NCBI RefSeq assembly: GCF_916619195.1
Contig: NZ_CAKAKL010000010.1
Coordinates: 1-64,000 of the forward strand
DNA from: Inquilinus sp. Marseille-Q2685
GTDB taxonomy: Bacteria; Pseudomonadota; Alphaproteobacteria; DSM-16000; Inquilinaceae
Length of the DNA stretch: 64,000 nucleotides
Direction: 5' to 3'
Below, in pieces: positions 23,210 through 41,995 of the stretch. Below the pieces are notes generated by a model that saw only the letters and a list, made by a program, of their open reading frames with translations, made no database searches and was not told the origin of the DNA. Position 1 is the stretch's first letter, and each line of letters starts with the position of its first letter. The position numbers were made by a program, and so were the translations under genes.

Positions 23210-24649
23210 ATGAGCGTGATCGAGCGAGCTGTGGTGCCGGTGGTGTTGTCGGGCGGGTCGGGGACGCGGCTGTGGCCGCTGTCGCGGGCGGGCTATCCCA
23301 AGCAGTTCCTGCCGCTGGTGTCGGGCAGCACCATGATCCAGGAGACGGTGGCCCGGGTCGGCGAGGCCGACGGCTTCGCCGCGCCGGTGTTCATCTGCGC
23401 CGACGACCACCGCTTCATCGTCGCCGAGCAGATGCGCCAGATCGGCGTGGCGCCGGACGCCATCATCCTCGAGCCCTCGGCCCGCAACACCGCCCCGGCC
23501 GTCGCCGTCGCCGCCCGCTTCCTGGCCGACCGCGACCCCGACACGCTGATGCTGGTGCTGCCCGCCGACCATCACATCGCCGACCCCAAGGGCTTCCGGG
23601 CATCCATCGCCGCCGCGGCGCCGGCCGCCCGCCAGGGCTATCTGATGACCTTCGGCATGCAGCCGACCGCGCCCGAGACCGGCTACGGCTACATCCTGCC
23701 GGGCGACGCCATCGCACAGGCCCCCGGCGCCCGCACCGTCGCCCGCTTCGTCGAGAAGCCGCCGCGCGAGACCGCCGAGCGCTTCCTGGCCGAAGGCCGG
23801 CACCTGTGGAACGCCGGCATCTTCCTGTTCACCGCCGGCCAGTACCTGGCCGAATGCGCCCGCCACGCCCCCCAGGTCCTGGCCGCCGCCGACGCCGCGC
23901 TCAAGGCCGCCTCGCGCGCCCTCACCTTCCTGCGCCTCGACCCTGCTGCCTTCGTCCAGGCCCCCTCGATCTCGATCGACCACGCCGTCATGGAGAAGAC
24001 CGACCGCGCCGGCATCGTCCCCGCCTCGATCGGCTGGACCGATGTCGGCTCCTGGTCCTCGCTCTGGGAGATCGGCGACCGCGACGCCGCCGGCAACCTG
24101 ACCCAGGGCGACGCCCTGGCTCTGGCCTCCCGCAACTGCCTGGTCCGCTCCGACGGCATCCTCACCGCCGTCATCGGCCTCGACGACGCCATCGTCATCG
24201 CCACCGACGACGCCGTCCTGGTCGCCGCCAAGGACCAGGTCCAGGACGTCAAGGCCGTCACCGACGCGCTGAAGAAGGCCAGGCGCCCCGAGGCCGTGAT
24301 CCACCGCGAGATCTACCGCCCCTGGGGCACCGTCAAGTCGCTGCATGCCGGCGACCGCTTCCAGGTCAAGCGCGTCCTGATCCATCCCGGCCAGGCCATC
24401 GCCCTGCAGCGCCACTACCACCGCTCCGAGCACTGGGTCGTGCTCTCCGGCACCGCCCGCGTCACCATGGAAGGCCAGTCCCGCATCCTGCGCGAGAACG
24501 AGGCCGTCTACCTCCCCATCGGCACCGACCACAAGCTCGAGAACCCCGGCAAGATCGACCTCGAGCTCATCGAGGTCCGCACCGGCCCCTATCTCGGCGA
24601 GGACGACGTCGTCCGCCTCGAGGCGGCCGACGAGCTGCTGTTCGGATGA
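23210..24649 (+). CDS. manC: Mannose-1-phosphate guanylyltransferase/mannose-6-phosphate isomerase (bifunctional)
   Basis: A 479-residue type II phosphomannose isomerase/GDP-mannose pyrophosphorylase. The N-terminal nucleotidyltransferase carries the signature VLSGGSGTRLWPLSRAGYPKQF (residues 11-32), DAIILEPSARNTAPAVAVAA and FVEKP. The C-terminal cupin domain holds YRPWGTVKSL, VKRVLIHPGQAIALQRHYHRSEHWVVLSGTA and the metal-binding His residues of the isomerase. It makes GDP-mannose from mannose-1-P and can interconvert fructose-6-P and mannose-6-P. With the mutase at 17145 it completes GDP-mannose supply. It is transcribed toward the PKS gene. Confidence 0.95.
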   Translation: MSVIERAVVPVVLSGGSGTRLWPLSRAGYPKQFLPLVSGSTMIQETVARVGEADGFAAPVFICADDHRFIVAEQMRQIGVAPDAIILEPSARNTAPAVAVAARFLADRDPDTLMLVLPADHHIADPKGFRASIAAAAPAARQGYLMTFGMQPTAPETGYGYILPGDAIAQAPGARTVARFVEKPPRETAERFLAEGRHLWNAGIFLFTAGQYLAECARHAPQVLAAADAALKAASRALTFLRLDPAAFVQAPSISIDHAVMEKTDRAGIVPASIGWTDVGSWSSLWEIGDRDAAGNLTQGDALALASRNCLVRSDGILTAVIGLDDAIVIATDDAVLVAAKDQVQDVKAVTDALKKARRPEAVIHREIYRPWGTVKSLHAGDRFQVKRVLIHPGQAIALQRHYHRSEHWVVLSGTARVTMEGQSRILRENEAVYLPIGTDHKLENPGKIDLELIEVRTGPYLGEDDVVRLEAADELLFG

Positions 24650-24813: not shown

Positions 24814-27800
24814 ATGCCAGCAGGCTCTCCGAGACTCCAGGACCAGCCCATCGCGGTGATCGGCATGGCCTGCCGGCTACCCGGCGCGGCCGGCCTCGAC
24901 GACTTCTGGTCGCTGCTGCTGCAGGAGCGCTGCAGCGTCTCCACGCTCGGCAGCGACCGCTGGGCGATCGAACGGTTCTACCACCCCCGGCGGGGCGAGC
25001 CGGGCCGCAGCTACACCCTGGCCGCCGGGCTGATCGAGGATCCGAACGGCTTCGACGCCGGCGCCTTCCGGATCGCGCCGCGCGAGGCCGAGCAGATGGA
25101 CCCGCAGCAGCGGCTGCTGCTGGAGCTGGTGTGGGAGGCGCTGGAGGATGCGGGCCTGCCGCCCTCCACCCTCGCCGGCCAGCCGGTCGGCGTCTTCGTC
25201 GGCGCCTCTTCGGTCGACGCCTATACCCGGATCGTGGGCGATGCCAGTGGTATCGACACCCATTTCATGACCGGCAACACCGCGTCGATCATCGCCAACC
25301 GCATCTCCTACATCTACGACCTGCGCGGGCCGAGCCTGACCATCGACACCGCCTGCTCCTCGTCCCTCGTCGCGCTGGACGCGGCGGTGCGGGCGCTGGC
25401 CCGGGGCGAGATCGACACCGCAGTGGTCGCCGGGGTGAACATCCTGGGCGCGCCGCAGGCCTTCTACGGCTTCTCCCGTGCCGGCATGCTGTCGCCGACC
25501 GGGCTGTGCCGGCCCTTCGCCGCGGCGGCCGACGGCTATGTCCGCGCCGAAGGCGGCGCCGTGCTGGTGCTGAGCCGCCTTGACGCCGCCCGTTCGAACG
25601 GGCGCGTGCCGCGCGCCATGATCGACGCGACCGGCGTCAATTCCGACGGCCGCACCGTCGGCCTGTCGCTGCCCTCCACCGACGCCCAGCGCCGCCTGCT
25701 GGAGCAGGTCTACGGCGAGGCCGGCATCGACCCGAACGGCCTCGCCTTCGTCGAGGCGCACGGCACCGGCACCCGGGTCGGCGACCCGGCCGAGGCCGAG
25801 GCGATCGGCCGCGCGCTGGGCCAGAAGCGGGACGCGCCGCTGCCGGTCGGCTCGGTCAAATCCAACATCGGCCATCTCGAGCCGGCCTCGGGCCTGGCCG
25901 GGACGATCAAGGCGATCCTGGCGATCGAGCACCGGCTGCTGCCGGCGACGCTGCATCTCGACAGCATCAACCCGGACATCCCGTTCGACGCGCTGAACCT
26001 GGTGCCCGCGCGCGGCCCCGTGGCGCTGCAGCCGGGGCGCGGCCCGCTGACGGCCGGCGTCTCCTCCTTCGGCTTCGGCGGCACCAACGCCCATGCGGTG
26101 CTGCGGGCGCCTCGGCCGGAGGAGATGCCGGAGCCGTCGCCCGACATCCCGGCCGGCATCCTGCTGCTGTCGGCCCATGGCGAGGAGGCGCTGCGCAGCC
26201 TGGCCGGGCGCTATGCCGAGGCGCTGGAGCGGCCGGACGCGGTGCCCGCCCGGATCGCCCGCCACGCTGCCTATGACCGGGAATGGCTGCCGCACCGCCT
26301 GGCCCTGCCCCTCGGCGACGACGCCGCAGCGCTGCTGCGACGCTTCGCCGAGGGCGACCTAGCCCCAGGCGACCAGTCGGGGCCGCTGCTGTCGGCCCGC
26401 GGCGAGGGGGCCGCCGGGCCGGTCTGCTTCGCCTTCTCCGGCAACGGCTCGCAATTCGCCGGCATGGGCCTGCGCGCCTACCGCGCCAGCCGGCCGTTCC
26501 GCGAGGCCTTCGACGAGATCGATGCGCGCTACGCCGCCCTGGCCGGCTGGTCGCCGGCCGAGGCGCTGCAGGACCCGGCGCTGGAAGAGCGGCTGCACGC
26601 CACCTCCACCGCCCAGCCGCTGCTGTTCGCGGTGCAGGCGGCTCTGACCGCGGCGCTGGCCGCGGAGGGGCTGCGGCCCGCCATGGTGATCGGCCACAGC
26701 GTCGGCGAGGTGGCGGCGGCGCTGGCCGCCGGCATGGTGACGCCGGACCAGGCGGTCCGGATCATCCACTGGCGCAGCCGCTGCCAGGAGCAACTGCGCG
26801 GCCTGGGCAGCATGGCGGTGCTGATGCTGTCGCGCGAGGAGGCCGAGGCGGTGCTGGCCGAGGCCGGCCTGGCCGGGGTCGTGGTGGCCGCGGTCAACAG
26901 CCCGGTCTGCGTCACCGTCTCCGGCCCCAGGGACGAGATCGAGGCGCTGCTGAAGCTGGCGCGGCAGCGCCGGGTCGCGGCGCAGCGCGTCGGGGTCGAC
27001 TACCCGTTCCATTCACCGCTGACCGCGCCGATCGAGGCGCCGCTGAAGGCGGCACTGGCCGGCACCGTCGCGGCCGACGGCCGGATCCCGTTCATCTCCG
27101 CCGTCACCGGCGGCCTGCTGGCCGGCGCCGCGCTGGATGCCGACTACTGGTGGCACAACATCCGCCAGCCGGTCGATTTCGCCGCGGCGGCGCGGACCGC
27201 GCTGGACCTCGGCGCCGCGATCTTCGTCGAGATCGGCCCCCGGCCGGTGCTGACCGGCCATCTGCGCGACATCGCCAAGGCGGCGGAGCGGGAGGCGGCG
27301 ATCCTGCCGACGCTCGACAACCGGCCCGGCAAGCAGGCGACCGAGGACGGGCGGGACCCGGTCCGGCCGGTCGCGCTGCAGGTGCTGCTGCGCGGCGGCG
27401 CCGTCGACCGGGGGCCGCTGTTCGGCGCCCGCCCCGCCGGCCGGCGCCAGGCCCTGCCGCACTATCCCTGGCAGCGCCGCGACCTGCGCCAAGCCCCGAC
27501 GCCGGAGCGCATCGACCTGTCGCTGGCCAAGCCGGCCCATCCGCTGCTGGGCGCCCGCCTGGGCGAGGGCACGCCGGAATGGCACGGGCTGCTGGACCCC
27601 GAGCTGCTGCCCTACCTCGCCGACCACAAGGTGGCGGGCGAGGTGGTGGTGCCCGGGGCCGCGCTGCTGGAGATGGCGGTCGCCGCCGGCCGGCAGTGGT
27701 TCGGCGCCGACGCCGTCGAGGTCGAGGATTTCGACATCCTGCAGGCGCTGATGATCCCCGAAGGGACGACGCGCGAGACCTGGCTGCGGCTGGCGCCGGC

Positions 27801-30800
27801 CACCGGCGCCGTCGAGATCCTGGCGCGGCAGCGCATGGCCGGGGAGGACTGGACGCTGCACGCCCGCGGCCGGGTCGGCCCGAGCCCGGTCGCCGCCGCG
27901 CCGGAGCGGGACGGCGCCCGGGACGACGACGCCCTACGCCCGGTCGATCCGGCGTCGATCTACGCCGCGGCCGCGTCGGCCGGGCTGGACTACGGTCCCG
28001 GCTTCCGCCGCGCCGCAGCCATCGCCAGCGACGACGAGCGGAGGATCACCGTCGACCTGGCGCCGGAGGCCGCGCAGAACGGCCTCTACACCACGCCGCA
28101 CGCGCTGCACCCGACCACGCTGGACGCCGCCTTCCACGGCTTGTTCGCGCTGTACGAGCGGCTCGGCGGCGGCGAAGGCGGCGCCTTCCTGCCGGTGCGC
28201 TTCGCCGCGCTGCGCGTCTACCGCTCCGCCCCGGCCTGCCGGGCGCGCCTGGACCTGCGCCGCGCCACGCCGCGGTCGATCCTGGTCGACATCGCGCTCG
28301 AGGACGAGGCGGGCTCGGGGGGGGCCGAGCTGCGCGGCGCCCGCTTCCAGCGCAGCGCCCTGCGCCTGGCGGGCGGGGACGAGCTGTTGTACCGCCCGGT
28401 GCGCCAGCCCTGGGACGACGGCACCGCCGCCGTCACCGCGGCGGATCTCGACCAGGCCGCCGCCGGGCTCCTGGACCGGCACCAGGCCGGCGACGACTGG
28501 CTGCTGCTGACCGCCTGGGCGCGGTCGATGGCACATCGCGCCGTGCGGGCGGTCGCCGGATCCTCCCGCTTCACCGTCGAGCGGCTGTGCCGCGGCGGGC
28601 GCCTGGCCACGGCCGCGGGGCCGCGCTTCGAGGGGCTGCTGCGGATCCTGGCGGAGTTCGGGCTGGCGACCGAGCAGAACGGCGCCTGGCACCTGGCCCC
28701 CGCCCGCCTGCCGTCGCCGCAGGCGATCCTGCGGTCGATCCTGGCCGCGCATCCGGAGCGCGGCGCCGAGACGGTGATGGCCGCCCGGCTGTCGCGCGAT
28801 CTGGTCGCGGCGCTGCGCAGCGGCGAGCCGCTGCGCTTCTCCAAGGGCGTCGAGGCGCATGCCCGCGCCGCCTCGCCGCTGCTGCCGCTGGCGGCGGAGC
28901 TGGTCGGGCGGCTGGCCGCCGGCCGTGCCGCGCCCCTGGCCCTGCTGCTGGTCGACCCCGAGGGCGAGCTGGTGCCGGCGCTGCTGCCGCTGGTCCGCGA
29001 GCGCGCCCTGACCGTGGCGGTGACCGGGCCGGAGCCCAAGGCGCTGGCCGGCCTGGCCGCGCGGACCCCGCGCCTGCCCGGGCTGCGGATCCTGGACGAC
29101 CAGGCCGCGGCGCCGGCGGGCCGCTTCGACCTCGCCTTGGCCGTCGACGCCGTGCCGGCGGGGGACCCGGCGCGGCTGGCCCAGCAGATCGCCGGGCTGC
29201 TGCGCCCCGGCGCTCCGGCCGTCGCCATCGACACCATCCCGGACACGGTGACCGCCCTACTGCTCGACGGCAGGACCGACGGCGCCGCGGCGCCGGACGG
29301 GCTGGCCGGGGCCCTGGTCCAGGCCGGCTTCCGGCCGGCCTCCAGGCACCGCGCCGGCACCAGCGGCGCGACGGCGCAGCTGGCGGTCTGGGACCGGCCG
29401 GCCGCCGCCGTCCCGGCCCGGTCGATCCTGATCCGGCCGCCGGCCGCCGAGGCCGAGCTGCTGACCGACCTGGCCGACCGGCTGCGCCGGCAGGGGCACC
29501 AGGTCCGCATCGACCCGGCCGCCGCCGCGGCCGAGGGCGACACCGTGCTGCTGCCGCTGATGCTGGACGCGGCGCGCGACCCCGTCACCTTCCTGAGCGG
29601 CGCGATCCTGGCGCTGCGGGCGGAGGCCGAGGCCCTGCCGGCCGGCAAGGCCACCCTGTGGCTCGTCGCCCGCTGCGGCAAGGTGAACGGCAAGGCCGAT
29701 GGCGGCCGCGGCCTGGCCGAGGCGCTGGCGGCCGCCGGCCGCACCCTGGCCAACGAGCATTCCGGCCTCGCCCTCCGCTTCGCCACCCTGGCCCCGGCGC
29801 TGGCCGACGACGCCGCGGCCGCGGCGCTGGCCGGGCTGATCGCATCGGACCCGGCCGAGACCGAGTTCGAGATCGACCGCGACGGCATCTTCGTCGGCCG
29901 GGTGGAAGCGGTGCGGCCGGCGCCGCAGGAGAGCGCGGCGGAGGACCGGGCCGCCCGCCTAGTCCTGGCCGCGCCGGGCAGCCTGGGCCGGATCGGCTGG
30001 ACCGCGGCCGAGCGCCGGGCCCCCGGGCCGGAGGAGATCGAGATCGAGGTCGAGGCCAGCGGGCTGAACTTCCGCGACGTGATGTTCTCGCTGGGCCTGC
30101 TGCCGGACGACTATCTGGAGGACGGCTTCGCCGGCCCGACGCTGGGCTTCGAATGCGCCGGCACCGTCCGCCGCGTCGGCGCGGCGGTGACCGGCCTGCA
30201 GGAGGGCGACCGGGTGATGGCCTTCGCCCCGGCCGCCTTCGCCACCCATGTGACGGTGCCGGCCCAGGTGGCGATGCGGGTGCCAGAGGGAATCGACCCG
30301 GCCGCTGCGGCGACCATGCCGGTCGCCTTCATCACCGCCTGGTACGCGCTGGTGCACCAAGCCCGGCTGGGCCGCGGCGAGAGCGTGCTGATCCACGGCG
30401 CCGCCGGCGGCGTCGGCCTCGCCGCGCTGCAGATCGCCAAGCTGCGCGGCGCCACCGTGGTGGCCACCGCCGGCAACGAGGACAAGCGGGCCCTGGCCCA
30501 GCTGCTGGGCGCCGACCTGGTGCTGGATTCCCGGTCGCTGGCCTTCGCCGACGAGATCCGCTGGAAGCTGGGCGGCGTCGACGTGGTGCTCAACTCGCTG
30601 TCCGGCGACGCGATGCGCCGCAGCCTGCGGGCGCTGAAGCCCTTCGGCCGCTTCGTCGAGCTGGGCAAGCGCGACTTCGTCGTCGATACCGCGGTGGGGC
30701 TGCGCGCCTTCGCCCGCAACGTCTCCTATTTCGGGGTCGACGCCGACCAGCTGCTGAACGCCCAGCCCGCCCTGACCAGGCGCCTGCTGCGCGACCTGGA

Positions 30801-32208
30801 CCGGCTGTTCGCGCAGCGCCGCCTGACCCCCCTGCCGCACCGGGTGTTCCCGGCCGACCAGGCGGAGGAGGCGTTCCGGCTGATGCAGGGCGCGGGCCAT
30901 ATCGGCAAAATCGTGATCACCCCGCCGCGCGAGATCCCAGCGGCGCCGGCGGCCGAGGCCCGGTTCGAGGCGCAGGGCACCGGCTTCCACCTGGTCACTG
31001 GCGGCACCGGGGGCTTCGGCTTCGCCGCCGCGCTGTGGCTGGCGGAGCACGGGGCGAAGACGATCGTCGTCGCGTCCCGCCGCGGTACGCTGGGCCCGGC
31101 GGAGAAGGCCGAGGCCGAGCGGCTGGCGAAGCAGGGCGCGACCCTGGCGGCCGAGCGGCTGGACGTCACCGACCGGGCGGCCTGCGAGAAGCTGCTGGCC
31201 GGGCTGGAGCGCCGGCACGGCCCGCTGCGCGGCATCATCCACGCCGCCATGGTGCTGGACGACGGCTTGCTGCGCGACCTGGACGCGGCGCGGATCGAGC
31301 GGGTGCTGGCGCCGAAGATCAAGGGCGCGATCCATCTCGACCTGGTCAGCCGCACCCGGGCGCCGGACTATTTCGTGCTGTTCTCCTCCGCCACCACGCT
31401 GATCGGCAATCCCGGCCAGGCCAATTACGTCGCCGCCAACGCCTATCTCGAGGCGCTGGCGCGGACCCGGCGGGCCCAGGGGCTGCCGGCGCTGGCCGTG
31501 GCCTGGGGCGCCATCGCCGATGCCGGGGTGCTGGCCCGCGACGCGGCCAAGGGCGACGCGCTGAAGCGGCGGATCGGCCGGTCGTCGCTGAAGGCGGCCG
31601 AGGCGCTGGCGCAGCTGGGCCGGCTGCTGGCCCGGCCGGCGGCGACGCCGGAGGAGGCGGTGGTGGCCTGCGCCCGGATCGACTGGCAGGCGGCGACCCG
31701 CGAGCTGCCGATCCTGGCCACGCCGCGGCTGGCGGCGATGGCCGATGGCCGCCGGGCCGAGGCGGCGGAGGCCGAGGTCGACCTCTCCGCCCTGATCGCG
31801 GGGCGGACCGACGCCGAGGCGCAGCGGATCGTGACCGAGACCATGCTGGCCGAGATCGGGCGGATCCTGCGCATGCCGCCGTCCGACATCGACGGCGACC
31901 GCCCCTTCGCGGAGCTGGGCATGGATTCGCTGATGGGGCTGGAGCTGGACGCGGCGATGCAGAGCCGCTACGGCATCGACCTGCCCTTCCTGTCGATCGG
32001 CGCCGGGCTGACGCTGAACGAGCTGAGCGGCCGCATCGTCGCCAAGCTGCGCGGCGCGCCGGCCGCCGGCCCCGAGGTGCCGCCGCCGAGCGAGGAGGCG
32101 CAGCTGATCGCCAAGCATGTCGAGGCCGAGCTGGAGGCCGACGCCGCCGTGCTGGTGCGCGAGGCGGTGCGGGACCGGGCCAAGACCACCCGCCGGGTGC
32201 TGGGATGA
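24814..32208 (+). CDS. Iterative-type highly reducing type I polyketide synthase, KS-AT-DH-pseudoMT-ER-KR-ACP
   Basis: 2464 residues, one complete reducing module. KS: DTACSSS with Cys181, then EAHGTGT and KSNIGHLEPASG. AT: GHSVGE with Ser629 and YPFHS at 730-734, where Phe-His favours malonyl. DH: HKVAGEVVVPG with His938 and Asp1104 in LDAAFHGL. About residues 1230-1700 is a region in the methyltransferase position that lacks a recognisable SAM-binding glycine motif. ER: HGAAGGVG 1861-1868. KR: TGGTGGFG 2062-2069, Ser2191/2192, Tyr2205. ACP: GMDS with Ser2372. There is no thioesterase, loading module or docking domain. It probably makes a saturated fatty-acyl-like chain iteratively. The oxoamine synthase gene starts 7 bases later and is the likely releasing enzyme. 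Confidence 0.95.
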   Translation: MPAGSPRLQDQPIAVIGMACRLPGAAGLDDFWSLLLQERCSVSTLGSDRWAIERFYHPRRGEPGRSYTLAAGLIEDPNGFDAGAFRIAPREAEQMDPQQRLLLELVWEALEDAGLPPSTLAGQPVGVFVGASSVDAYTRIVGDASGIDTHFMTGNTASIIANRISYIYDLRGPSLTIDTACSSSLVALDAAVRALARGEIDTAVVAGVNILGAPQAFYGFSRAGMLSPTGLCRPFAAAADGYVRAEGGAVLVLSRLDAARSNGRVPRAMIDATGVNSDGRTVGLSLPSTDAQRRLLEQVYGEAGIDPNGLAFVEAHGTGTRVGDPAEAEAIGRALGQKRDAPLPVGSVKSNIGHLEPASGLAGTIKAILAIEHRLLPATLHLDSINPDIPFDALNLVPARGPVALQPGRGPLTAGVSSFGFGGTNAHAVLRAPRPEEMPEPSPDIPAGILLLSAHGEEALRSLAGRYAEALERPDAVPARIARHAAYDREWLPHRLALPLGDDAAALLRRFAEGDLAPGDQSGPLLSARGEGAAGPVCFAFSGNGSQFAGMGLRAYRASRPFREAFDEIDARYAALAGWSPAEALQDPALEERLHATSTAQPLLFAVQAALTAALAAEGLRPAMVIGHSVGEVAAALAAGMVTPDQAVRIIHWRSRCQEQLRGLGSMAVLMLSREEAEAVLAEAGLAGVVVAAVNSPVCVTVSGPRDEIEALLKLARQRRVAAQRVGVDYPFHSPLTAPIEAPLKAALAGTVAADGRIPFISAVTGGLLAGAALDADYWWHNIRQPVDFAAAARTALDLGAAIFVEIGPRPVLTGHLRDIAKAAEREAAILPTLDNRPGKQATEDGRDPVRPVALQVLLRGGAVDRGPLFGARPAGRRQALPHYPWQRRDLRQAPTPERIDLSLAKPAHPLLGARLGEGTPEWHGLLDPELLPYLADHKVAGEVVVPGAALLEMAVAAGRQWFGADAVEVEDFDILQALMIPEGTTRETWLRLAPATGAVEILARQRMAGEDWTLHARGRVGPSPVAAAPERDGARDDDALRPVDPASIYAAAASAGLDYGPGFRRAAAIASDDERRITVDLAPEAAQNGLYTTPHALHPTTLDAAFHGLFALYERLGGGEGGAFLPVRFAALRVYRSAPACRARLDLRRATPRSILVDIALEDEAGSGGAELRGARFQRSALRLAGGDELLYRPVRQPWDDGTAAVTAADLDQAAAGLLDRHQAGDDWLLLTAWARSMAHRAVRAVAGSSRFTVERLCRGGRLATAAGPRFEGLLRILAEFGLATEQNGAWHLAPARLPSPQAILRSILAAHPERGAETVMAARLSRDLVAALRSGEPLRFSKGVEAHARAASPLLPLAAELVGRLAAGRAAPLALLLVDPEGELVPALLPLVRERALTVAVTGPEPKALAGLAARTPRLPGLRILDDQAAAPAGRFDLALAVDAVPAGDPARLAQQIAGLLRPGAPAVAIDTIPDTVTALLLDGRTDGAAAPDGLAGALVQAGFRPASRHRAGTSGATAQLAVWDRPAAAVPARSILIRPPAAEAELLTDLADRLRRQGHQVRIDPAAAAAEGDTVLLPLMLDAARDPVTFLSGAILALRAEAEALPAGKATLWLVARCGKVNGKADGGRGLAEALAAAGRTLANEHSGLALRFATLAPALADDAAAAALAGLIASDPAETEFEIDRDGIFVGRVEAVRPAPQESAAEDRAARLVLAAPGSLGRIGWTAAERRAPGPEEIEIEVEASGLNFRDVMFSLGLLPDDYLEDGFAGPTLGFECAGTVRRVGAAVTGLQEGDRVMAFAPAAFATHVTVPAQVAMRVPEGIDPAAAATMPVAFITAWYALVHQARLGRGESVLIHGAAGGVGLAALQIAKLRGATVVATAGNEDKRALAQLLGADLVLDSRSLAFADEIRWKLGGVDVVLNSLSGDAMRRSLRALKPFGRFVELGKRDFVVDTAVGLRAFARNVSYFGVDADQLLNAQPALTRRLLRDLDRLFAQRRLTPLPHRVFPADQAEEAFRLMQGAGHIGKIVITPPREIPAAPAAEARFEAQGTGFHLVTGGTGGFGFAAALWLAEHGAKTIVVASRRGTLGPAEKAEAERLAKQGATLAAERLDVTDRAACEKLLAGLERRHGPLRGIIHAAMVLDDGLLRDLDAARIERVLAPKIKGAIHLDLVSRTRAPDYFVLFSSATTLIGNPGQANYVAANAYLEALARTRRAQGLPALAVAWGAIADAGVLARDAAKGDALKRRIGRSSLKAAEALAQLGRLLARPAATPEEAVVACARIDWQAATRELPILATPRLAAMADGRRAEAAEAEVDLSALIAGRTDAEAQRIVTETMLAEIGRILRMPPSDIDGDRPFAELGMDSLMGLELDAAMQSRYGIDLPFLSIGAGLTLNELSGRIVAKLRGAPAAGPEVPPPSEEAQLIAKHVEAELEADAAVLVREAVRDRAKTTRRVLG

Positions 32209-32215
32209 GTTTGCG

Positions 32216-33571
32216 ATGACCAAGGGACGTTTGTCGGACGCCGCGCTGCGGTCGCTGATCTCCGAGGTGCGCGGCAAGGCCGCGGCGCCGGTCGAGGTGC
32301 CGGCGGCGCCGGAGGCGCGGTCCTACGACACCGCCTTCGAGACCCTGCCGGGCTACGAGACGCTGCGGATGCAGCGCGCCGCGGCCGACCTGCTGGGCGT
32401 CGCCAGCCCGTTCTTCCGCACCCACGAGCAGCGCGCCGGGGCGGTGTCGCGGATCGCCGGTCAGGAGGTGATCAACTTCGCCTCCTACGACTATCTCGGG
32501 CTGAACGGCCACCCGGCCGTGGCCGCGGCGGCGAAGGCGGCGGTCGACGAGTTCGGCACCTCGGTCTCGGCCAGCCGCCTCGTGGCGGGCGGGCGGCCGT
32601 TCCATGCGGCGCTGGAGCGGCGGCTGGCCGAGGTGCACGGGGTCGAGGACGCGGTCGCCTTCGTCAGCGGCCACGCCACAAACGTCTCCGCCATCGGCCA
32701 GATCACCGGGCCGGCCGACCTGATCCTGCACGATGCGCTGATCCACAGCAGCGTGATCACCGGCGCCCAGCTGTCCGGGGCGCAGCGGCGGGCCTTCCCG
32801 CACAACGACCTTGACACGCTGGAAGCCATCCTGGCGGCCGAGCGCGACCGCTGGCAGCGCGTGCTGATCGTGGTCGAGAGCCTGTATTCGATGGACGGCG
32901 ACACCGTCGACCTGCCCCGGCTGGTGGCGCTCAAGCAGCGCTTCGGCGCCTGGCTGATGGTCGACGAGGCGCATGGGCTGGGCGTGCTGGGCCCGACCGG
33001 GCGCGGCATCGCCGAGGCCGCCGGAGTCGACCCGCGGCAGGTCGACATCTGGATGGGCACGATGTCGAAGACGCTGGCCTCCTGCGGCGGCTACATCGCC
33101 GGGCCGGGCGCCCTGGTCGAATACCTGAAGCTGACGGCGTCGGGCTTCGTCTACAGCGTCGGCATGCCGGCGCCGGCGACGATGGCGGCGCTGACGGCGC
33201 TGGAGCTGCTGATGGCCGACACGGATGGCCGCGTGGCCCGGCTGCGGGCCAATTCCCGGCATTTCCTGGAGCGCGCGCAGGCCGCCGGGCTGGACACCGG
33301 CCTGGCCCAGGGCCATGCGATCGTCCCGATCATCCTGGGGGATTCGCTGCAGGCGGTGCTGCTGTCGAACCGGCTGCTGGAGCGCGGCGTCAACGTCTCG
33401 CCGATCGTGCATCCGGCGGTGCCGGAGAAATCGGCCCGGCTGCGCTGCTTCGTGACGTCGGAGCACACCCCGGACCAGATCGACCGAGCCGTCGCCATCA
33501 TCGCCGAGGAGCGGGAGACGCTGCGGCGCGAGGCGCCGACGGTGGCAAGGCTGAAGTCTCTCGCATCCTGA
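32216..33571 (+). CDS. Alpha-oxoamine synthase (PLP), AONS/KBL/SPT-like
   Basis: A 451-residue PLP fold-type I enzyme. Core motifs are NFASYDYLGLNGHPAVAAAA, GTSVSASRLVAGGRPFHAALE, VDEAHGLGVLGPTGRG and the PLP lysine in GTMSKTLASCGGYIAG (Lys285). Family members condense an acyl thioester with an amino acid, with decarboxylation (serine palmitoyltransferase, AONS, KBL, CqsA). It carries ~60 extra N-terminal residues relative to AONS. Placed 7 bases after a thioesterase-less PKS, it probably takes the chain straight from the PKS ACP and releases an alpha-aminoketone, as Fum8 is proposed to do for fumonisin. Which amino acid is used is not readable. Confidence 0.93.
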   Translation: MTKGRLSDAALRSLISEVRGKAAAPVEVPAAPEARSYDTAFETLPGYETLRMQRAAADLLGVASPFFRTHEQRAGAVSRIAGQEVINFASYDYLGLNGHPAVAAAAKAAVDEFGTSVSASRLVAGGRPFHAALERRLAEVHGVEDAVAFVSGHATNVSAIGQITGPADLILHDALIHSSVITGAQLSGAQRRAFPHNDLDTLEAILAAERDRWQRVLIVVESLYSMDGDTVDLPRLVALKQRFGAWLMVDEAHGLGVLGPTGRGIAEAAGVDPRQVDIWMGTMSKTLASCGGYIAGPGALVEYLKLTASGFVYSVGMPAPATMAALTALELLMADTDGRVARLRANSRHFLERAQAAGLDTGLAQGHAIVPIILGDSLQAVLLSNRLLERGVNVSPIVHPAVPEKSARLRCFVTSEHTPDQIDRAVAIIAEERETLRREAPTVARLKSLAS

Positions 33572-33730
33572 GCTGATACCGTCCGGACCGGCAAACGCCG
33601 CGGCAGGCTCCCGACATCATCCGTTCATATGACGCGGCAGGCTTCGCGGGCCGGTATCTTGCGTCCGACCGGAGCCGATGGCGTCGGATGCCATCGGCTC
33701 CGCCGCAACCTCGACGAACGGGATCTGACC

Positions 33731-34546
33731 ATGGCTGACGTCTATGGCGCGATCACGGATGCAGCGCTGAATAGGATTGTCGGGTTCGCGCATGTCCGCG
33801 CCCCGTTTCTGTTCAACTATGTCGCACCATCGCTCCAGGTGGTGCTGGATGCCGACCAGAATTTCGCGGGCCTGCAGGACCTTTGGCTGACATGCGCGCC
33901 GGTTCCGGACTCGCCCCTGCCCGGCGTGCCGAAATATCGCCGGATGCCGCCGTTCCAGCTTCCGGGCATTCCCATCGGGTTGCCATACTCGATCCAGATC
34001 GTCGATGCGAAGATCGATTTCCATCCGGGAAACGAGGTCGTGCTGCCGGAGGAGCTGCGGCCGCCGCTCGGAGGCCAGGGCATCGCGCTCAAGGCTCAGC
34101 TTCTATTCGGCCTCTCCTGCGTTCCCGACGGCATCGTCGAGACCTTGACCCGACAGCAGTTCGGGCTGACCGATACGATCCCGCGCTTCAGCGTGCTGCC
34201 GGTCACCCATCTGGAATGCTTCGTCCTCGACCTCTACGCGACCGGACAGCTGGCGGTGCGGACGACGCCGCAGCCCGGCCCCTACCCGCTGCAGCAGGTG
34301 CGGCTGGAGGTCGACGGCATCGAGATCGTCGACATCACGCCGAAGGGCCTGGAAGGCGCGATCGAATGCTACCTGCGCGCCATGCTCAAGGGTTATGTGC
34401 TGCCGAGGCTCGTGCTCGGTCTGGAGGACTTGGTGCTGCGCACGCTCGGCATCACCTTCACCCCGCATCTGACGCCAGCCCTGCCGAACAATCCGGCGGC
34501 CGAGCAGGACGAGTTGCGGGTCTGGTTGGACCTCGAGGTGAGCTAA
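33731..34546 (+). CDS. Unknown protein, first gene of a three-gene cassette
   Basis: 271 residues, no signal peptide or membrane span. The ATG at 33731 follows GGGATCTGACC. It is rich in alternating hydrophobic strands (SIQIVDAKIDFHPGNEVVLP; ALKAQLLFGLSCVPDGIV; LECFVLDLYATGQLAV) ending with an amphipathic helix (YLRAMLKGYVLPRLVLGLED). I recognise no family; the beta-rich pattern with long amphipathic stretches recalls lipid-binding TULIP-type folds, which is only an impression. Base composition is visibly less GC-rich than the PKS upstream. The next gene begins 11 bases after its stop. Confidence 0.8.
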   Translation: MADVYGAITDAALNRIVGFAHVRAPFLFNYVAPSLQVVLDADQNFAGLQDLWLTCAPVPDSPLPGVPKYRRMPPFQLPGIPIGLPYSIQIVDAKIDFHPGNEVVLPEELRPPLGGQGIALKAQLLFGLSCVPDGIVETLTRQQFGLTDTIPRFSVLPVTHLECFVLDLYATGQLAVRTTPQPGPYPLQQVRLEVDGIEIVDITPKGLEGAIECYLRAMLKGYVLPRLVLGLEDLVLRTLGITFTPHLTPALPNNPAAEQDELRVWLDLEVS

Positions 34547-34557
34547 GGGAGGCGGTG

Positions 34558-35526
34558 ATGAGCGAGGTAACCTTCTCCGTCAGCGAGCGTGCGTTCACCG
34601 CGGTCTTCAACAAGATCTATCCCTCGGTGCAACTGCCCTTCGACGGGTCGAACACCGTGGCCGGGATCATATGGTATGGCGTCGACGGCGCGATCCACAT
34701 CGAGGGCGCCGGCGAGATCCGGTTCGAGGACGGCAACACCTTCCTCCTCAAAGAACTCAAGATCGGCTGGGACAAGCTGATCCTACGCCTGGGAATCGAC
34801 ATCCCGGAGCTGACCATCGGCGGCTTCTGCCTGATCCGGGCGCCGCGGGGCACCCCGTTCATCGGCGGGCACTGCATCGTGCCGTTTCCCAAGATCTCGC
34901 TGTTCACGGCCAAACCCGACATCGGCCCGCTGACACTGAACCTGAACGCGATCGTCGCCTATCTCATTACCGAGATCAGCGGCCGCTTCTCCATCGGCAT
35001 CCGCAAGGACGGCGACTTCCAGAAGATCTACGCCGATCCGCAGGCCGTCGATGTCGACCCGATCTCGATCAGCGACACCTTCGGCAAGCTGCCGACCATC
35101 GTTCAGGCCGGCGTCGCCGCGGCCAGTGCACAAATGCTGGCCCTGGTGCCGGCCGCCTGGATGGCCGACGTCATCCTGTCTCTGCTGGGCGCGCCGACGG
35201 TGACAGCCTATCTGCTCGATTTGCTCGACATCCATGACGACATGGAGGAGTGGCTGATGGACGTCCTCCATGTCAGCATTGGCCTCGACAACCTGCTGTA
35301 TCAGGTGATCTTTGCATCGATGCTGGAGCGGACCGAGCTCTTCAAGATCGAGGATCCCTATCCTTTCGTGCCGGCGATGAAGCTCGACACAGCGGATTTC
35401 GGCGGCTTTCCTGTCGTCCCGGCGACACCCGACTTCATGATGCCGGAGGTTGCGGCCGCGATCCTGAATCCTTCGGTGCAGTTCGAGGCCGGCGTCATGA
35501 CCGTCCGGTTCGATTTCGGAGGCTGA
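34558..35526 (+). CDS. Unknown protein, second gene of the cassette
   Basis: 322 residues, start ATG 34558 with AAGGGAGG 6 bases upstream. The first half alternates short beta strands (GIIWYGVDGAIHIEGAGEIRF; KIGWDKLILRLGIDIPELTI). The second half has hydrophobic helices (AAASAQMLALVPAAWMADVI; VTAYLLDLLDIHDDMEEWLM; LLYQVIFASMLERTELF). There is no signal peptide. The pattern of amphipathic strands wrapping long hydrophobic helices would suit a lipid-binding protein (TULIP/P47-like is one possibility), but I cannot show this from sequence alone. Tight spacing on both sides indicates an operon with its neighbours. Confidence 0.8.
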   Translation: MSEVTFSVSERAFTAVFNKIYPSVQLPFDGSNTVAGIIWYGVDGAIHIEGAGEIRFEDGNTFLLKELKIGWDKLILRLGIDIPELTIGGFCLIRAPRGTPFIGGHCIVPFPKISLFTAKPDIGPLTLNLNAIVAYLITEISGRFSIGIRKDGDFQKIYADPQAVDVDPISISDTFGKLPTIVQAGVAAASAQMLALVPAAWMADVILSLLGAPTVTAYLLDLLDIHDDMEEWLMDVLHVSIGLDNLLYQVIFASMLERTELFKIEDPYPFVPAMKLDTADFGGFPVVPATPDFMMPEVAAAILNPSVQFEAGVMTVRFDFGG

Positions 35527-35531
35527 AGACC

Positions 35532-36251
35532 ATGCGCAACATCCTCTCTTCGGCCTTCACGGTGGTCGATCTGGATTCGGCCGCACTCGCCGGCACGGCG
35601 ACGGTCGCCCATCCTCTCCACGATGTCGGGGATCTCTGGCTTTCGGTGCATGAGGACGGGCGCGAGGCGTTGCCGGCGGCCATCATCAGCGTTCGCGACG
35701 ACGAGGGGCCGATGCAGGTCTCGCTGGACCTTGCGGCCGAGCCGGCCGACTGCTCCGGCCGGGTCCGGCCTGGGCAGGCGCTGCACGTGGTCCGCAAAGG
35801 TGGCTATCTCTGCCTCGGGTCGAGCACGGAAGGTAGAGGCCGCTTCGCCACGCTCCAGAACGGCCAGAAGCCGAACCTGCCATGGGATTCCCGCAGCCTC
35901 GGCCCCGGCGATCTCTTCGCCTTCGTGGCAATGCGGCCCGGAACCTATGCGTTGGCGAACCGGATCGACGACGCCGCCTGCACCGTGACCGTGATCTATC
36001 CCGATCCACGGCGCAACAAGATGCGCTCGCCGCAGCCTCCGAAACCCATCCGCATCCGGTCGTCGAAGCTGGCGGGCCACAAGACCATCGCGATGAAACC
36101 CGGCCAGGGTATGGTGGTGGAGGTCGAAACGGCGGCAAGATTCACCTTGGATCTGCAGGCCGCCGACGACGGCCCTCCCGATCTCGCCGCATGGCGCCGC
36201 GCCCAGTCCCGGACGATCTGGCCGCGCACGCAGAGCCAGCGCAACGCCTGA
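35532..36251 (+). CDS. Unknown protein, third gene of the cassette
   Basis: 239 residues, ATG 35532, 5 bases after the previous stop. It looks like two beta-sandwich-like parts: an N-terminal half (SAFTVVDLDSAALAGTATVA; HDVGDLWLSVHEDGREALPA) and a C-terminal half after residue ~120 (GDLFAFVAMRPGTYALANRI; ACTVTVIYPDPRRN), ending in a basic tail. No catalytic motif or signal peptide. Family not recognised. Same lower-GC composition as the two genes before it, consistent with co-inheritance. It ends 39 bases before the convergent SDR stop codon. Confidence 0.78.
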   Translation: MRNILSSAFTVVDLDSAALAGTATVAHPLHDVGDLWLSVHEDGREALPAAIISVRDDEGPMQVSLDLAAEPADCSGRVRPGQALHVVRKGGYLCLGSSTEGRGRFATLQNGQKPNLPWDSRSLGPGDLFAFVAMRPGTYALANRIDDAACTVTVIYPDPRRNKMRSPQPPKPIRIRSSKLAGHKTIAMKPGQGMVVEVETAARFTLDLQAADDGPPDLAAWRRAQSRTIWPRTQSQRNA

Positions 36252-36290
36252 CGTCGCGGGCCTCACCGCCAGCACGGATGCGATGCGTCG

Positions 36291-37088
36291 CTACAGCGCC
36301 GCCGGGGCGTCGATCTCGAAGCGCAGGAAGCGGTCGATGAAGGCCGCCCGGACCGGGCGCGGGGCCAGCCGGCCCAGGCGGATCAGCCAGACCAGCGGCC
36401 AGGGGAAGGCGACCATGGCGCGGCCGCGCGCGGCGCCGGCGGCAATGTGCCCGGCCGCGCGCTCGGCGCTCCACTGGAACGGCCGGGCGCCGCGGTAGCG
36501 GTCGCTCATCCCGGTGGCGATGAAGCCGGGGCAGGCGATGGTGACGCGGATGCCGTCCGGCCGCAGCCAGGCCAGCAGCGCCTCGCCCCAGGCCATCAGC
36601 CCGGCCTTGGAGGCGGAATAGGCCGGCTGGTCGGCCAGCGGCATCAGCGCCGCCAGCGACGAGACCAGGACGATGCGGCCGAAGCGGCGGGCGCGCATCG
36701 GCTCGATCAGCGGCGACACCGTGGCGATCGCGCCTTCCAGGTTGATGCGCAGCTGCGCCGTGACCAGATCCTCCGGTTCGCAGCCGCGGCCCGGGGCCAG
36801 ACCGGCCTCGACACCGGCATTGGCAATCACCACCGCCACCGGATGGCGGGCGTCGAAGCCGCGCAGGAAATCGCCCAGCCGGGCGCCGTCGCGCACATCG
36901 ATCTCCGCCGTCTCCACCACCGCGCCGCGGCGCCGGCAGGATTCGGCGACCCCGGCCAGGCGGGCGGGGTTGCGGCCGATCAGGGCCAGCGCCACGCCCG
37001 GCGCCGCGTAGTGCCGGGCCAGCGCCGCGCCGAGACCGTGCGACGCCCCGGTCACGACAACCGCCGTCGCCTGGGCCGTCACGCTCAT
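36291..37088 (-). CDS. Short-chain dehydrogenase/reductase coupled to kpsS
   Basis: 265 residues, classical SDR: cofactor motif TGASHGLG (13-20), NAG motif VIANAG, catalytic Ser143/144, Tyr157 and Lys161 (YSASK). There is a C-terminal hydrophobic stretch (FPWPLVWLIRLGRLAPRP) that may bind membrane or lipid. Its ATG overlaps the kpsS stop (ATGA), so the two are translationally coupled. It resembles SDRs acting on lipophilic ketones. Near the PKS-oxoamine synthase pair, a 3-keto-sphinganine-reductase-like role is an attractive inference; a nucleotide-sugar or other ketone substrate is the alternative. Confidence 0.88.
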   Translation of the reverse strand: MSVTAQATAVVVTGASHGLGAALARHYAAPGVALALIGRNPARLAGVAESCRRRGAVVETAEIDVRDGARLGDFLRGFDARHPVAVVIANAGVEAGLAPGRGCEPEDLVTAQLRINLEGAIATVSPLIEPMRARRFGRIVLVSSLAALMPLADQPAYSASKAGLMAWGEALLAWLRPDGIRVTIACPGFIATGMSDRYRGARPFQWSAERAAGHIAAGAARGRAMVAFPWPLVWLIRLGRLAPRPVRAAFIDRFLRFEIDAPAAL

Positions 37089-38470
37089 TCCCCGGCCTGC
37101 GCCCAGGCCGCAGCCTCGCGCAGCGGCCGCACCTCGCCGTCGAGGATGCGGCGGCGGGCGCCGTCGACCGCGAGGTCGATGCCCTGCAGCGAGAAGAAGC
37201 TGCCGCGGATCTGGGTCCGCGCCACCACGACGCGGCGGAACGCCTCCAGCAGGTCCGGCCGCGGCGGCTGCCCCTCGGCCCAGAAACGGTCGAGGCCGCC
37301 CTGGAAGCTGAGGCCCGGCAGGTCGAACACGGCGGTGCCCAACGTCTGCAGCGGCCGGCCGCGCTCGAGCGCGAACAGGCCGACGGTGGAGTTGACCACG
37401 ACCACGCCGATGGCGCCGTCGACCAGTTGCTGCAAGTCGCCGCCGTCGATGAAGTCGACCCGGCCGGCGACGCCGTGCCGCGCCGCCAGCGCCTCGATCC
37501 GCCGCTGCTTGGCGACCGGGCGGAAGTCCAGCGGGTGCAGCTTCACCACCAGCCGGGTGCCGGGGTCGGCGCTGCGGGCGAAGGAGGCGATCACCTCCTC
37601 CGCCGCCTCGACCGTGTCGCGGAAGGGCGAATGGGTGCGGATCTGGAAATCGGTGTCGAGCTGCAGCGGGTGCAGGTAGTAGCGCCCGGCCTGCCCGGCC
37701 AGGCCCTGCATCACCCGGCGCGCCCGCCGCCTGGCCCAGGGGGCGCGGAGGAAGCGGCCCACCCAGCCGGCATATTCCACCAGCGGGTGGTCGAGGGCGT
37801 GGTGGCGGTAATGCGGGAAGGCCGGCATCAGCGCCACCAGCCCGGCCGTCCACAGCACGTCCCACACCGCCCGGTGCAGGAAGTAGGACGGCACCGGTGC
37901 CGGCGGCGGCGGCGGTTCGACGCCCCGCGCCAGGGCCAGGAACGCGGCCGGGCTGCGCGGCAGGTCGGAATGACCGTTGACGCCCCAGGCCTCGCAGGTG
38001 ACCCAGCCGGGGCGCAGATAGCCCTCCTCGAACAGGTGCAGCCTGAGGCCGCGGCGGCGGGCGAGGTCAACCGCCACCCTGTGATGCGGCCGGCAGTCGC
38101 CGAACAGCACCAGGTCGGTGACGCGCTCGCGGTCGAGGATGTCCGCGACGAAGCCGCGCCAGTCCTCGAACCGGCCGCGGAAGGCGATGGCCGGCCGGCG
38201 CCAGAACACCACGTCGCCGCCGCAGATGTTGATCTTGACGATGCGGGCGCCCTCGGCCTCCAGCGCCGCCGCCAGGCGGCGCTGGAACGGCGTCGCCGCC
38301 CCCTGCAGGACCAGCACGACGCGCTGACGTCCGGTGCCGGACGGCGCCGGGATCGCCCGCGCCGCAGCCGGCTGTGGGGAGGCCGGCTGCGGCGGGACGG
38401 GCCGCGGCGGGGCCAGCGCACCGGCCAGCCGCGCCGCAGCGGCAAACGGGCGCTGGGGTCGCCCGTTCAC
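37085..38470 (-). CDS. kpsS: Capsule polysaccharide modification/export protein, KpsS-like
   Basis: 461 residues. A Pro/Ala-rich N-terminus is followed by the Capsule_synth (KpsS/LipB) domain: VVLVLQGAATPFQRRLAAALE, KINICGGDVVFW, VTDLVLFGDCRPHHRVAVDLA, LHLFEEGYLRPGWVTCEAWG and HPLQLDTDFQIRTHSPF, then LVVKLHPLD and 'VVVVNSTVGLFALERGRPLQTLGTAVFDLPGL'. In group 2 capsules KpsS adds the first beta-Kdo onto the lipid anchor. The start is GTG 38470 (GGGAG 6 bases upstream). No KpsC partner is present in this window. Confidence 0.88.
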   Translation of the reverse strand: MNGRPQRPFAAAARLAGALAPPRPVPPQPASPQPAAARAIPAPSGTGRQRVVLVLQGAATPFQRRLAAALEAEGARIVKINICGGDVVFWRRPAIAFRGRFEDWRGFVADILDRERVTDLVLFGDCRPHHRVAVDLARRRGLRLHLFEEGYLRPGWVTCEAWGVNGHSDLPRSPAAFLALARGVEPPPPPAPVPSYFLHRAVWDVLWTAGLVALMPAFPHYRHHALDHPLVEYAGWVGRFLRAPWARRRARRVMQGLAGQAGRYYLHPLQLDTDFQIRTHSPFRDTVEAAEEVIASFARSADPGTRLVVKLHPLDFRPVAKQRRIEALAARHGVAGRVDFIDGGDLQQLVDGAIGVVVVNSTVGLFALERGRPLQTLGTAVFDLPGLSFQGGLDRFWAEGQPPRPDLLEAFRRVVVARTQIRGSFFSLQGIDLAVDGARRRILDGEVRPLREAAAWAQAGE

Positions 38471-38481
38471 GCTCGTCTCCC

Positions 38482-40803: not shown

Positions 40804-40858
40804 GCGTCTCGTCCACTTCGATAGGGTCGGTTTCGGGTCGCCGGACCGGGGTGCCGCA

Positions 40859-41995
40859 TCAGGCCCGGTCCGCCAGGGGCCGCCGCAGCAGCGCCGCCAT
40901 GCGCTGCAGCGGCCCGGCCGCCGGCCGGCGTTCGGCGGCGGCGGGCCGGATCACCGTCTGCGGCCGGTGCTGCAGCGGGATCTGCCGCAGCACCGGATGC
41001 TCGAACACGGTCTCGCCGCGCCCCGGCCGCAGCGGGTTCAGGTCGAGCGGGAAGGCTTCCTGGAGCGGCGCCGTGTCGAAATCGGGCCGCTGCCAGGCCG
41101 TGTCGATCGCCGCCATCAGCGCCGCCCAGTCGGTGCGCTCGCGGCGCGGCTGGCCGTAGATCGGCAGGCTGGTGCGGCCGAGGCCGCGATAGAGGTCGAC
41201 GATGCGGAGGTCGAGCGTGCCGTCAGGGTCGAGCTCGGCCGTGTGCAGCCCGCGCGGCGCCCGCGGCGAGAAGTACAGGCAGGGGATGCCGTAGCTTTCG
41301 GCGAAGACCATGCCGTGCAGGCTGGTCGACACGATCCGCTCGCATTCCAGGATCTCGTCCAGCCGGGCCCGCATCCCGTCCAGGCCGATCGGCGTCACCG
41401 TGTGGATCAGCCTGACGTCGCCGGCCAGCTCCGCCGGCACCTGGTAGCGGATGTGCTCCGCCTTCGGCCGGACCTCGAAGGAGCGGTCCTGCAGATCGGC
41501 CAGATGGATGATGACGCCGAGCTTCCACTTCTTGCGGCGCGGCCCGGGGTAGAATTGCGGCAGCAGCCAGACCGGGTCGCCGTAGACCGCCGGCCCCACC
41601 GCGTTCTCCTCGCCCAGGATCCGGCGCGACACCGGCCCGCGGGTCGCGGCGATGTGCAGGCGGGTGCCGGGCAGCGGCGCCACCGGGACGCGCTGATCGG
41701 CCGGGGCCGAGGGGTTGCGCCAGCGCGAGCTGCCGGTGCCCCAGACCACGACCTCGCCCTCCTTCAGGCTGTGGCCGATGGTGCCGACCGCGGCCATGCG
41801 CAGGCGCCGCGATTCATGCGCGACATGTTCGACCGGCAGGCCCGACAGCAGCGACACCATCACCGCGCTGAGCGCGTCGCCGAGATTGACATAGTCCTGC
41901 TCGCGCGTCGCCGCCACCCAGGTCAGCGGCACGATCTGCCGCTGCCTGACCGAGGCGGCCAAAGCGCGAATGGTCTCGTTGCCCGGCACGGCCAT
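40859..41995 (-). CDS. Polysaccharide pyruvyltransferase-family protein
   Basis: 378 residues, single domain, clearly paralogous to the N-terminal domain of the next gene (VNLGDALSAVMVSLLSGLP; GTIGHSLKEGEVVVWGTGSSRWRNPSAP; YGDPVWLLPQFY; RIVSTSLHGMVFAESYGIPCLYFSP). The ATG at 41995 has GGAAA five bases upstream, and the longer in-frame start is not supported. It probably modifies sugars of the exported polysaccharide with pyruvate. First gene of the minus-strand run PPT, double PPT, kpsS, SDR. Confidence 0.88.
   Translation of the reverse strand: MAVPGNETIRALAASVRQRQIVPLTWVAATREQDYVNLGDALSAVMVSLLSGLPVEHVAHESRRLRMAAVGTIGHSLKEGEVVVWGTGSSRWRNPSAPADQRVPVAPLPGTRLHIAATRGPVSRRILGEENAVGPAVYGDPVWLLPQFYPGPRRKKWKLGVIIHLADLQDRSFEVRPKAEHIRYQVPAELAGDVRLIHTVTPIGLDGMRARLDEILECERIVSTSLHGMVFAESYGIPCLYFSPRAPRGLHTAELDPDGTLDLRIVDLYRGLGRTSLPIYGQPRRERTDWAALMAAIDTAWQRPDFDTAPLQEAFPLDLNPLRPGRGETVFEHPVLRQIPLQHRPQTVIRPAAAERRPAAGPLQRMAALLRRPLADRA

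Follow-up and report, generated by a model that had tools for sequence, protein, structure and literature searches.

A polyketide synthase and an oxoamine synthase in a capsule locus of Inquilinus sp. Marseille-Q2685: an rkp-1/wcb-type gene set with a putative route to an amino-alcohol lipid

Introduction

Why should a capsule locus carry the gene for a polyketide synthase (PKS) and, directly behind it, that for an alpha-oxoamine synthase (AOS)? The question is raised by a contig of Inquilinus sp. Marseille-Q2685 (NZ_CAKAKL010000010.1, RefSeq assembly GCF_916619195.1), of which positions 1 to 64,000, hereafter the window, were analysed. An AOS releases a PKS chain as an aminoketone in fungal fumonisin biosynthesis and in SxtA of the saxitoxin pathway. 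The original prediction for the window, made from its letters and open reading frames (ORFs), proposed a comparable route, in which the PKS supplies a saturated chain, the AOS adds an amino acid and a short-chain dehydrogenase/reductase (SDR) reduces the ketone, the resulting sphingoid-like amino alcohol serving as, or replacing, the lipid linked to the exported polysaccharide; it also took the arrangement to be of a new kind.

We find that the genes almost certainly belong to the rkp-1/wcb kind known from other proteobacteria, and we favour reading them as the lipid module of a capsule locus dependent on an ATP-binding cassette (ABC) transporter, with a route to a capsule lipid that would run through the PKS, the AOS, the SDR and a KpsS-like protein. 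The parts of this reading differ in strength, and they are taken in turn below.

Results

The PKS and AOS as a conserved pair

The Pfam matches of the PKS follow the order KS-AT-DH-ER-KR-ACP, with a single acyl carrier protein (ACP) domain at the C terminus, and catalytic motifs were detected for all six domains; no thioesterase was among these matches. The original prediction was therefore right to see a reducing enzyme of one module without thioesterase, and equally right that a pyridoxal 5'-phosphate (PLP) enzyme of the type of serine palmitoyltransferase (SPT) and 8-amino-7-oxononanoate synthase follows, its start lying 7 bases after the PKS stop. In a tblastn search of plasmid records this AOS is 53.5% identical, over 88% of the query, to the RkpG homologue on pSymB of Sinorhizobium meliloti. 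The window thus has two of the marks of the rkp-1/wcb lipid module, namely a reducing mono-modular RkpA-type PKS with ACP and without thioesterase, and an RkpG-type AOS immediately 3' of it.

Two sets of loci were compared. The 80 named genome loci are the best 80 of at least 575 confirmed, lean to the Alphaproteobacteria and include three from Inquilinus; an even sample of the class comprised 387 genomes, 14 of them with an RkpG-type AOS (four further AOS, at 41-46% identity, were left out of this count), and 14 loci from 13 genomes were examined. A same-strand PKS lies immediately upstream of the AOS in 77 of the 80 named loci and in all 14 loci of the class sample. In 52 of the 77, a candidate AOS start and the PKS stop share 4 bases; in 20 more such a start lies within 30 nt of the stop, and in 5 neither holds. 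The exceptions to adjacency are L061, with the PKS on the opposite strand, L080, with the PKS 3' of the AOS, and L077, whose contig begins 814 bp upstream of the AOS and has a partial KR match (51 bits) at its edge. Elsewhere the two enzymes are a single protein, with the order KS-AT-DH-ER-KR-ACP-AOS in Planktothrix (plasmid p3, L037 7581-15179) and KS-AT-ACP-AOS, without reducing domains, in Streptomyces (L038 10311-15134).

Because of this adjacency and these fusions, the hand-over of an ACP-bound chain from PKS to AOS is well supported and is the simplest reading; the AOS very probably acts on the PKS chain, as had been proposed. As a separate observation, the Planktothrix and Streptomyces fusions are possible natural-product assembly lines.

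The AOS subfamily

A quick tree of 48 rows places all 28 RkpG-type AOS, 18 of them from the 80 named loci, on one side of a branch with a Shimodaira-Hasegawa-like approximate likelihood ratio (SH-aLRT) support of 94, apart from SPT (100), 5-aminolaevulinate synthase (ALAS; 100), KBL (99) and three BioF rows. The window AOS groups with those of S. meliloti and Burkholderiales, and L009, 43% identical, joins on a long branch. All the RkpG, SPT, BioF, ALAS and KBL rows compared share H177, D250, H253, K285 and R410; residues Y91, S118 and F412 occur in every one of the 28 RkpG rows and in none of the 19 from the other four groups. As judged from tree and residues, the RkpG-type AOS is a subfamily of its own.

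The highest NCBIfam score of the window AOS is to bioF, at 350.6 bits against a cut-off of 426.45, and three SPT models give 297, 279 and 226 bits against cut-offs of 640, 500 and 670. We therefore rejected SPT, whose clade also excludes the enzyme, and rejected BioF for its cut-off. With strict E-value limits (1e-110 to 1e-130), searches of the Inquilinus genome found no SPT, BioF or KBL; one ALAS and the capsule AOS were the only full-length AOS-family proteins found. The genome has bioB (contig C2, 842894-843811), although no BioF was found beside these two. The label 'sphingoid-like' is unproven for the AOS product because the enzyme lies outside the SPT clade, so that this part of the original prediction is not supported as worded.

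Association with capsule genes

Downstream DNA of 8 kb or more is available for 48 loci; 37 of them carry genes for export or assembly no more than 10 kb away (detection thresholds for kpsM, kpsE and OPX, the polysaccharide export protein, were lenient, at 45-55 bits), and 20 have a KpsS-like gene. Loci lacking the latter can still carry polysaccharide genes, such as an ABC permease and OPX (L097), ManC, Wzz and an ABC permease (L103), or ManC and a glycosyltransferase (L108). In the class sample, the RkpG-type AOS (14 genomes) and a strong match to PF05159, the family of the KpsS-like protein (23 genomes, >100 bits), coincide in 7 of the 387 genomes where 0.83 would be expected (Fisher p 2.6e-6 including the Inquilinus genome, 2.2e-5 excluding it), and in all 7 the two genes lie no more than about 8 kb apart. 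The inclusion of the lipid-making set in a capsule export locus is supported.

Full-length KpsC, taken as an open frame of at least 640 aa and read by eye, is rarer in PF05159 genomes that also have an RkpG-type AOS (2/7 against 12/16), a difference that is not significant (p 0.066), and the idea that the RkpG pathway replaces KpsC was set aside.

The SDR and the stretch before it

The stop codon of the kpsS-like gene (37085-37087) overlaps the SDR start as ATGA, and the SDR 3' end lies 2.7 kb beyond the AOS, which confirms both the predicted coupling and the predicted distance. The SDR/kpsS-like pair is convergent with the PKS-AOS pair and does not share an operon with it. An SDR of RkpH type, a further mark of the rkp-1/wcb module, is present, on a branch different from that of S. 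meliloti RkpH (33% identity).

An SDR scoring at least 110 bits lies near the PKS-AOS pair in 31 of the 80 named loci, and one is found in 9 of the 14 class-sample loci. A first threshold of 75 bits was too lax, being exceeded by 10 of the 30 background SDRs (best 99 bits), which were the 30 best PF00106 scorers of 97 matches in the Inquilinus genome. In a tree with 6 named rows and rows from 25 loci (16 of the 31 SDR-bearing named loci and all 9 of the sample), the locus SDRs fall on one side of a branch from these 30, which is weak evidence as the rows were picked by similarity. Of the 77 solved-structure matches to the window SDR, the 60 listed include none named as a 3-ketosphinganine reductase. 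What is supported is that an SDR type recurs beside the pair; that it reduces the ketone we infer.

In five sample loci (L155-L157, L159 and L161) the SDR lies within about 0.7 kb 3' of the AOS on the same strand, and KpsS was not found in the available DNA, the contigs of L155 and L156 stopping 3.7 and 1.3 kb downstream. These five loci speak for a PKS-AOS-SDR path that is independent of KpsS.

The DNA between AOS and SDR holds three hypothetical ORFs. In the three Inquilinus relatives that span the site (L004, L005, L006), the AOS and SDR matches are separated by only about 10 to 377 bp; the fragmented genome G002 gave no close AOS, and the contig of L007 stops soon after it. Searched for in 61 genomes, the middle ORF (34558-35526) turned up in one, that of Marseille-Q2685 itself, and it was in no plasmid record. 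Two of the three ORFs have a third-position GC content below that of their neighbours, and a search around 33731-36251 gave no clear flanking repeats. The 2.7-kb stretch is an apparent strain-specific insert, and its ORFs, which lack Pfam matches, were set aside as probably not part of the pathway, since the three relatives have no such gap and the middle ORF was met in this genome alone among the 61.

A locus resembling that of Inquilinus, with an AOS 93% identical, was also met on a contig listed under Mycobacterium sp. KBS0706 (L040), which is probably a mislabelled genome.

The KpsS-like protein and other genes of the window

The kpsS product scores 227 bits against an equivalog cut-off of 600, and for that reason is KpsS-like rather than KpsS proper; the S. 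meliloti RkpJ homologue, to which it is 41% identical, also misses the cut-off (193 bits). No KpsC was found in the Inquilinus genome, where the sole PF05159 match is this KpsS-like gene, so that the KpsC partner is missing. Homologues of RkpI, RkpJ and RkpU, further marks of the rkp-1/wcb module, are present (Table 1). Over 425 aa, the RkpI-like protein shares 32% identity with the ORF that separates the rkpH and rkpJ homologues of S. meliloti, and its sole solved-structure matches, all weak (E 1e-7 to 4e-4), are to a lipoteichoic acid (LTA) primase and to phosphoglycerol transferases. Two regulators of the MucR/Ros type adjoin the locus at 43609-44388 (-) and 45034-45588 (+).

Table 1. Features of the capsule locus, with positions in the window
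Feature	Position	Strand	Basis
LTA-synthase/sulfatase-family protein, RkpI-like	8920..10434	-	PF00884
Polysaccharide export (OPX) protein, RkpU/KpsD-like	10461..11654	-	PF02563/SLBB; 32% to S. meliloti homologue
Putative KpsE-like co-polymerase	13480..15006	+	Position before kpsM only; no Pfam family
KpsM-like ABC transporter permease	15055..15861	+	PF01061
KpsT-like ABC transporter ATPase, start uncertain	15855..16589	+	PF00005 within ORF 15591-16589
Glycosyltransferase of capsule locus	20264..22882	-	PF00534
ManC-type mannose-1-phosphate guanylyltransferase/isomerase	23210..24649	+	TIGR01479 above cut-off
RkpA/WcbR-type one-module reducing PKS, 2464 aa	24814..32208	+	Pfam and motifs; 40% identical to S. 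meliloti RkpA homologue
RkpG-type AOS, PLP enzyme	32216..33571	+	Pfam/NCBIfam; RkpG clade
Three hypothetical ORFs (33731-34546, 34558-35526, 35532-36251)	33731..36251	+	No Pfam
SDR, RkpH-like role	36291..37088	-	PF00106; clusters with the SDRs of other PKS-AOS loci; ATGA overlap with kpsS
KpsS-like (RkpJ-like) Capsule_synth protein	37085..38473	-	PF05159; start codon uncertain, mechanical ORF to 38524
Two polysaccharide pyruvyl transferase family proteins (38482-40803, 40859-42091)	38482..42091	-	PF04230

Discussion

A putative route to a capsule lipid

The genes suggest the following pathway. The PKS, whose domains are all recognizable, would assemble a reduced acyl chain, presumably by iteration, on the ACP that it carries; it lacks a thioesterase that could free the chain. 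The AOS would condense the ACP-bound chain with a small amino acid to give CO2 and a long-chain aminoketone, a step for which adjacency and fusion argue strongly. The SDR may then convert the aminoketone to an amino alcohol, and formation of such a compound is on balance probable. The KpsS-like enzyme might add the first sugar, presumably 3-deoxy-D-manno-oct-2-ulosonic acid (Kdo), to this lipid, or else the lipid may act as a carrier during export; the RkpI-like protein of the LTA-synthase family may contribute a phospho-group. Growth of the polymer and its export by the KpsMT, KpsE-like and OPX proteins would follow.

Taken as a whole, the sequence from aminoketone to amino alcohol to capsule anchor is plausible; the amino acid used, the reduction of the ketone and the anchoring are inferred. 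That the lipid forms the covalent reducing-end anchor of the capsule is possible, with our own judgement leaning somewhat the other way, and this claim of the original prediction is not supported as it was made. Several observations weigh against the pathway as drawn. None of the export genes sought was present at 11 of the 48 well-flanked loci. In four of these 11, some of the neighbouring genes were scanned, and most proved to be of a different nature; L053 has a glycosyltransferase gene upstream, and L088 has one of the N-acetylglucosamine (GlcNAc) 2-epimerase family. A PF05159 match is absent from 7 of the 14 class genomes with an RkpG-type AOS; by these two results the lipid is not bound to capsules of the KpsS kind. 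The recurring SDR is present in just 31 of the 80 named loci, and the best-scoring model of the AOS is bioF rather than SPT. Finally, a paper title reports a phospholipid anchor for the poly-Kdo of S. meliloti 1021, whose secretion requires rkp-1.

This last report speaks for an alternative in which the product of PKS, AOS and SDR is a carrier, an export helper or an ordinary membrane lipid, and the capsule is anchored through Kdo on lyso-phosphatidylglycerol, like that of Escherichia coli group 2. We regard it as unlikely, if the least improbable of three rivals. E. coli groups 2 and 3 are described as being assembled on a phosphatidylglycerol anchor (PMC13410964, from an excerpt), and the five sample loci with an SDR and no KpsS in their available DNA, two of them cut short, fit it too. 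Against it stand the lack of KpsC in the Inquilinus genome, the non-significant scarcity of full-length KpsC alongside the RkpG-type AOS, and the description, in an excerpt, of the lipid carrier itself as the rkp-1 product (PMC4881576). Given the phospholipid report, either the rkp lipid is a carrier rather than an anchor, or the anchor phosphate comes from the RkpI-like enzyme.

It is far less probable that the pair makes a free small molecule, a signal or toxin, and sits in the capsule locus incidentally. AOS enzymes of the CqsA type do make diffusible products; such a role would also suit the 11 loci without an export gene and the Planktothrix and Streptomyces fusions, within 14 kb of which no capsule export gene is among the annotated features. 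Polysaccharide neighbours of the ABC-export type nevertheless recur in distant lineages (the 37 loci above), and a paper title ties rkpG to capsular polysaccharide production in Rhizobium meliloti. The idea that the AOS is the genome's missing BioF, the 7-keto-8-aminopelargonate (KAPA) synthase of biotin formation, draws on its bioF score (350 bits), on the presence of bioB and on ALAS being the only other full-length AOS-family protein found; with a score under the cut-off of 426, a place outside the BioF rows of the tree and a PKS adjoining or fused in nearly all loci, it is very improbable.

A route through PKS, AOS and SDR to a capsule lipid, the reading that we prefer, has not been met in the literature searched, which was thin on subscription papers and gave nothing linking the rkp/wcb gene set with sphingoid or oxoamine chemistry; the gene set itself is known, and the host is new. 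The rkp-1/wcb lipid has so far been called a 'specific lipid carrier' or the product of 'fatty acid synthesis', and the passages on it, as excerpted, give no amine-lipid structure. The preferred route names a definite chemical class to look for, and would matter for how symbionts and other proteobacteria export their capsules. A bolder proposal, which we consider doubtful, is that rkp/wcb-type capsules of root-nodule symbionts, Burkholderiales, Halomonas and Inquilinus are built on a PKS-derived, sphingoid-like long-chain amino alcohol in place of lyso-phosphatidylglycerol, that in Inquilinus a lone KpsS-like enzyme starts the glycan without KpsC, and that an RkpI-like transferase adds the phosphate on account of which the anchor was taken for a phospholipid.

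Comparison with known systems

SPT with 3-ketosphinganine reductase carries out the same classes of reaction, AOS condensation followed by SDR reduction; the window AOS differs in lying in a separate clade, in scoring too low for each of the three SPT models, and in probably taking its acyl group from the PKS-bound ACP. The fumonisin and SxtA systems are likened to the window by description rather than by sequence, and belong to different lineages, whereas the window set lies in a capsule locus. For an ABC-dependent capsule with a special anchor there is precedent in the Vi antigen of Salmonella Typhi, which has a dedicated anchor without a poly-Kdo linker (PMC12220298); there the lipid consists of an N-acetylhexosamine bearing two beta-hydroxy chains, and the excerpt describing it mentions neither PKS nor AOS.

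Closer relatives are the wcb-type loci of Burkholderiales. Excerpts of earlier work treat the wcb and rkp clusters as orthologous across alpha- and beta-Proteobacteria (PMC3908369) and assign wcbR of Burkholderia pseudomallei to fatty acid synthesis for capsular polysaccharide I (CPS-I) (PMC7858667). Paraburkholderia dioscoreae (pII) and Caballeronia insecticola (p2) share with the window an SDR, an LTA-synthase-family protein, a PKS and an AOS, and the P. dioscoreae stretch also has a kpsS-like gene and an SDR 44% identical to that of the window. They differ in an LpxC-like deacetylase gene between PKS and AOS (L036 12905-13819, L120 14898-15824; both on plasmids), a homologue of which is found in none of the 80 named loci. 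In Paraburkholderia and on a Pseudomonas plasmid, the set has a GNAT gene close by, which had suggested a ceramide-like, N-acylated product; with a GNAT homologue in 1 of the 80 named loci and the LpxC-like gene in none, this idea was dropped.

The nearest described system is rkp-1 of S. meliloti. Its pSymB gene order is OPX, PKS, AOS, SDR, LTA-synthase/sulfatase family and KpsS-like, which we take to be rkpU, rkpA, rkpG, rkpH, rkpI and rkpJ gene by gene; the fifth ORF is missing from the gene table and was found here by search (PF00884). The rkp gene names, the position of rkpU 5' of rkpA and a single long rkpA in strains Rm41, 1021 and HH103 are documented (PMC7902896, in the part available), and rkp-1 is described as making a specific lipid carrier for K-antigen export (PMC4881576). 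Its six products all have homologues in the window, with identities of 32% (OPX), 40% (PKS), 53.5% (AOS), 33% (SDR), 32% (LTA family) and 41% (KpsS-like), and the order of PKS then AOS and the link to capsule export are common to both. The window differs in its SDR, which lies on another branch (33% over 207 aa) and sits with the kpsS-like gene on the strand opposite to PKS and AOS, in having its RkpU- and RkpI-like genes 13 to 16 kb before the PKS start, and in the apparent 2.7-kb insert between AOS and SDR. Since the window has homologues of all six rkp-1 genes, already described, and since rkp-1 and wcbR already stand in the literature, as excerpted, as lipid or fatty acid functions of capsules, the novelty claimed for the locus is not upheld: the gene set is not a new kind of system, and is a relative, in Inquilinus, of one already described in root-nodule bacteria.

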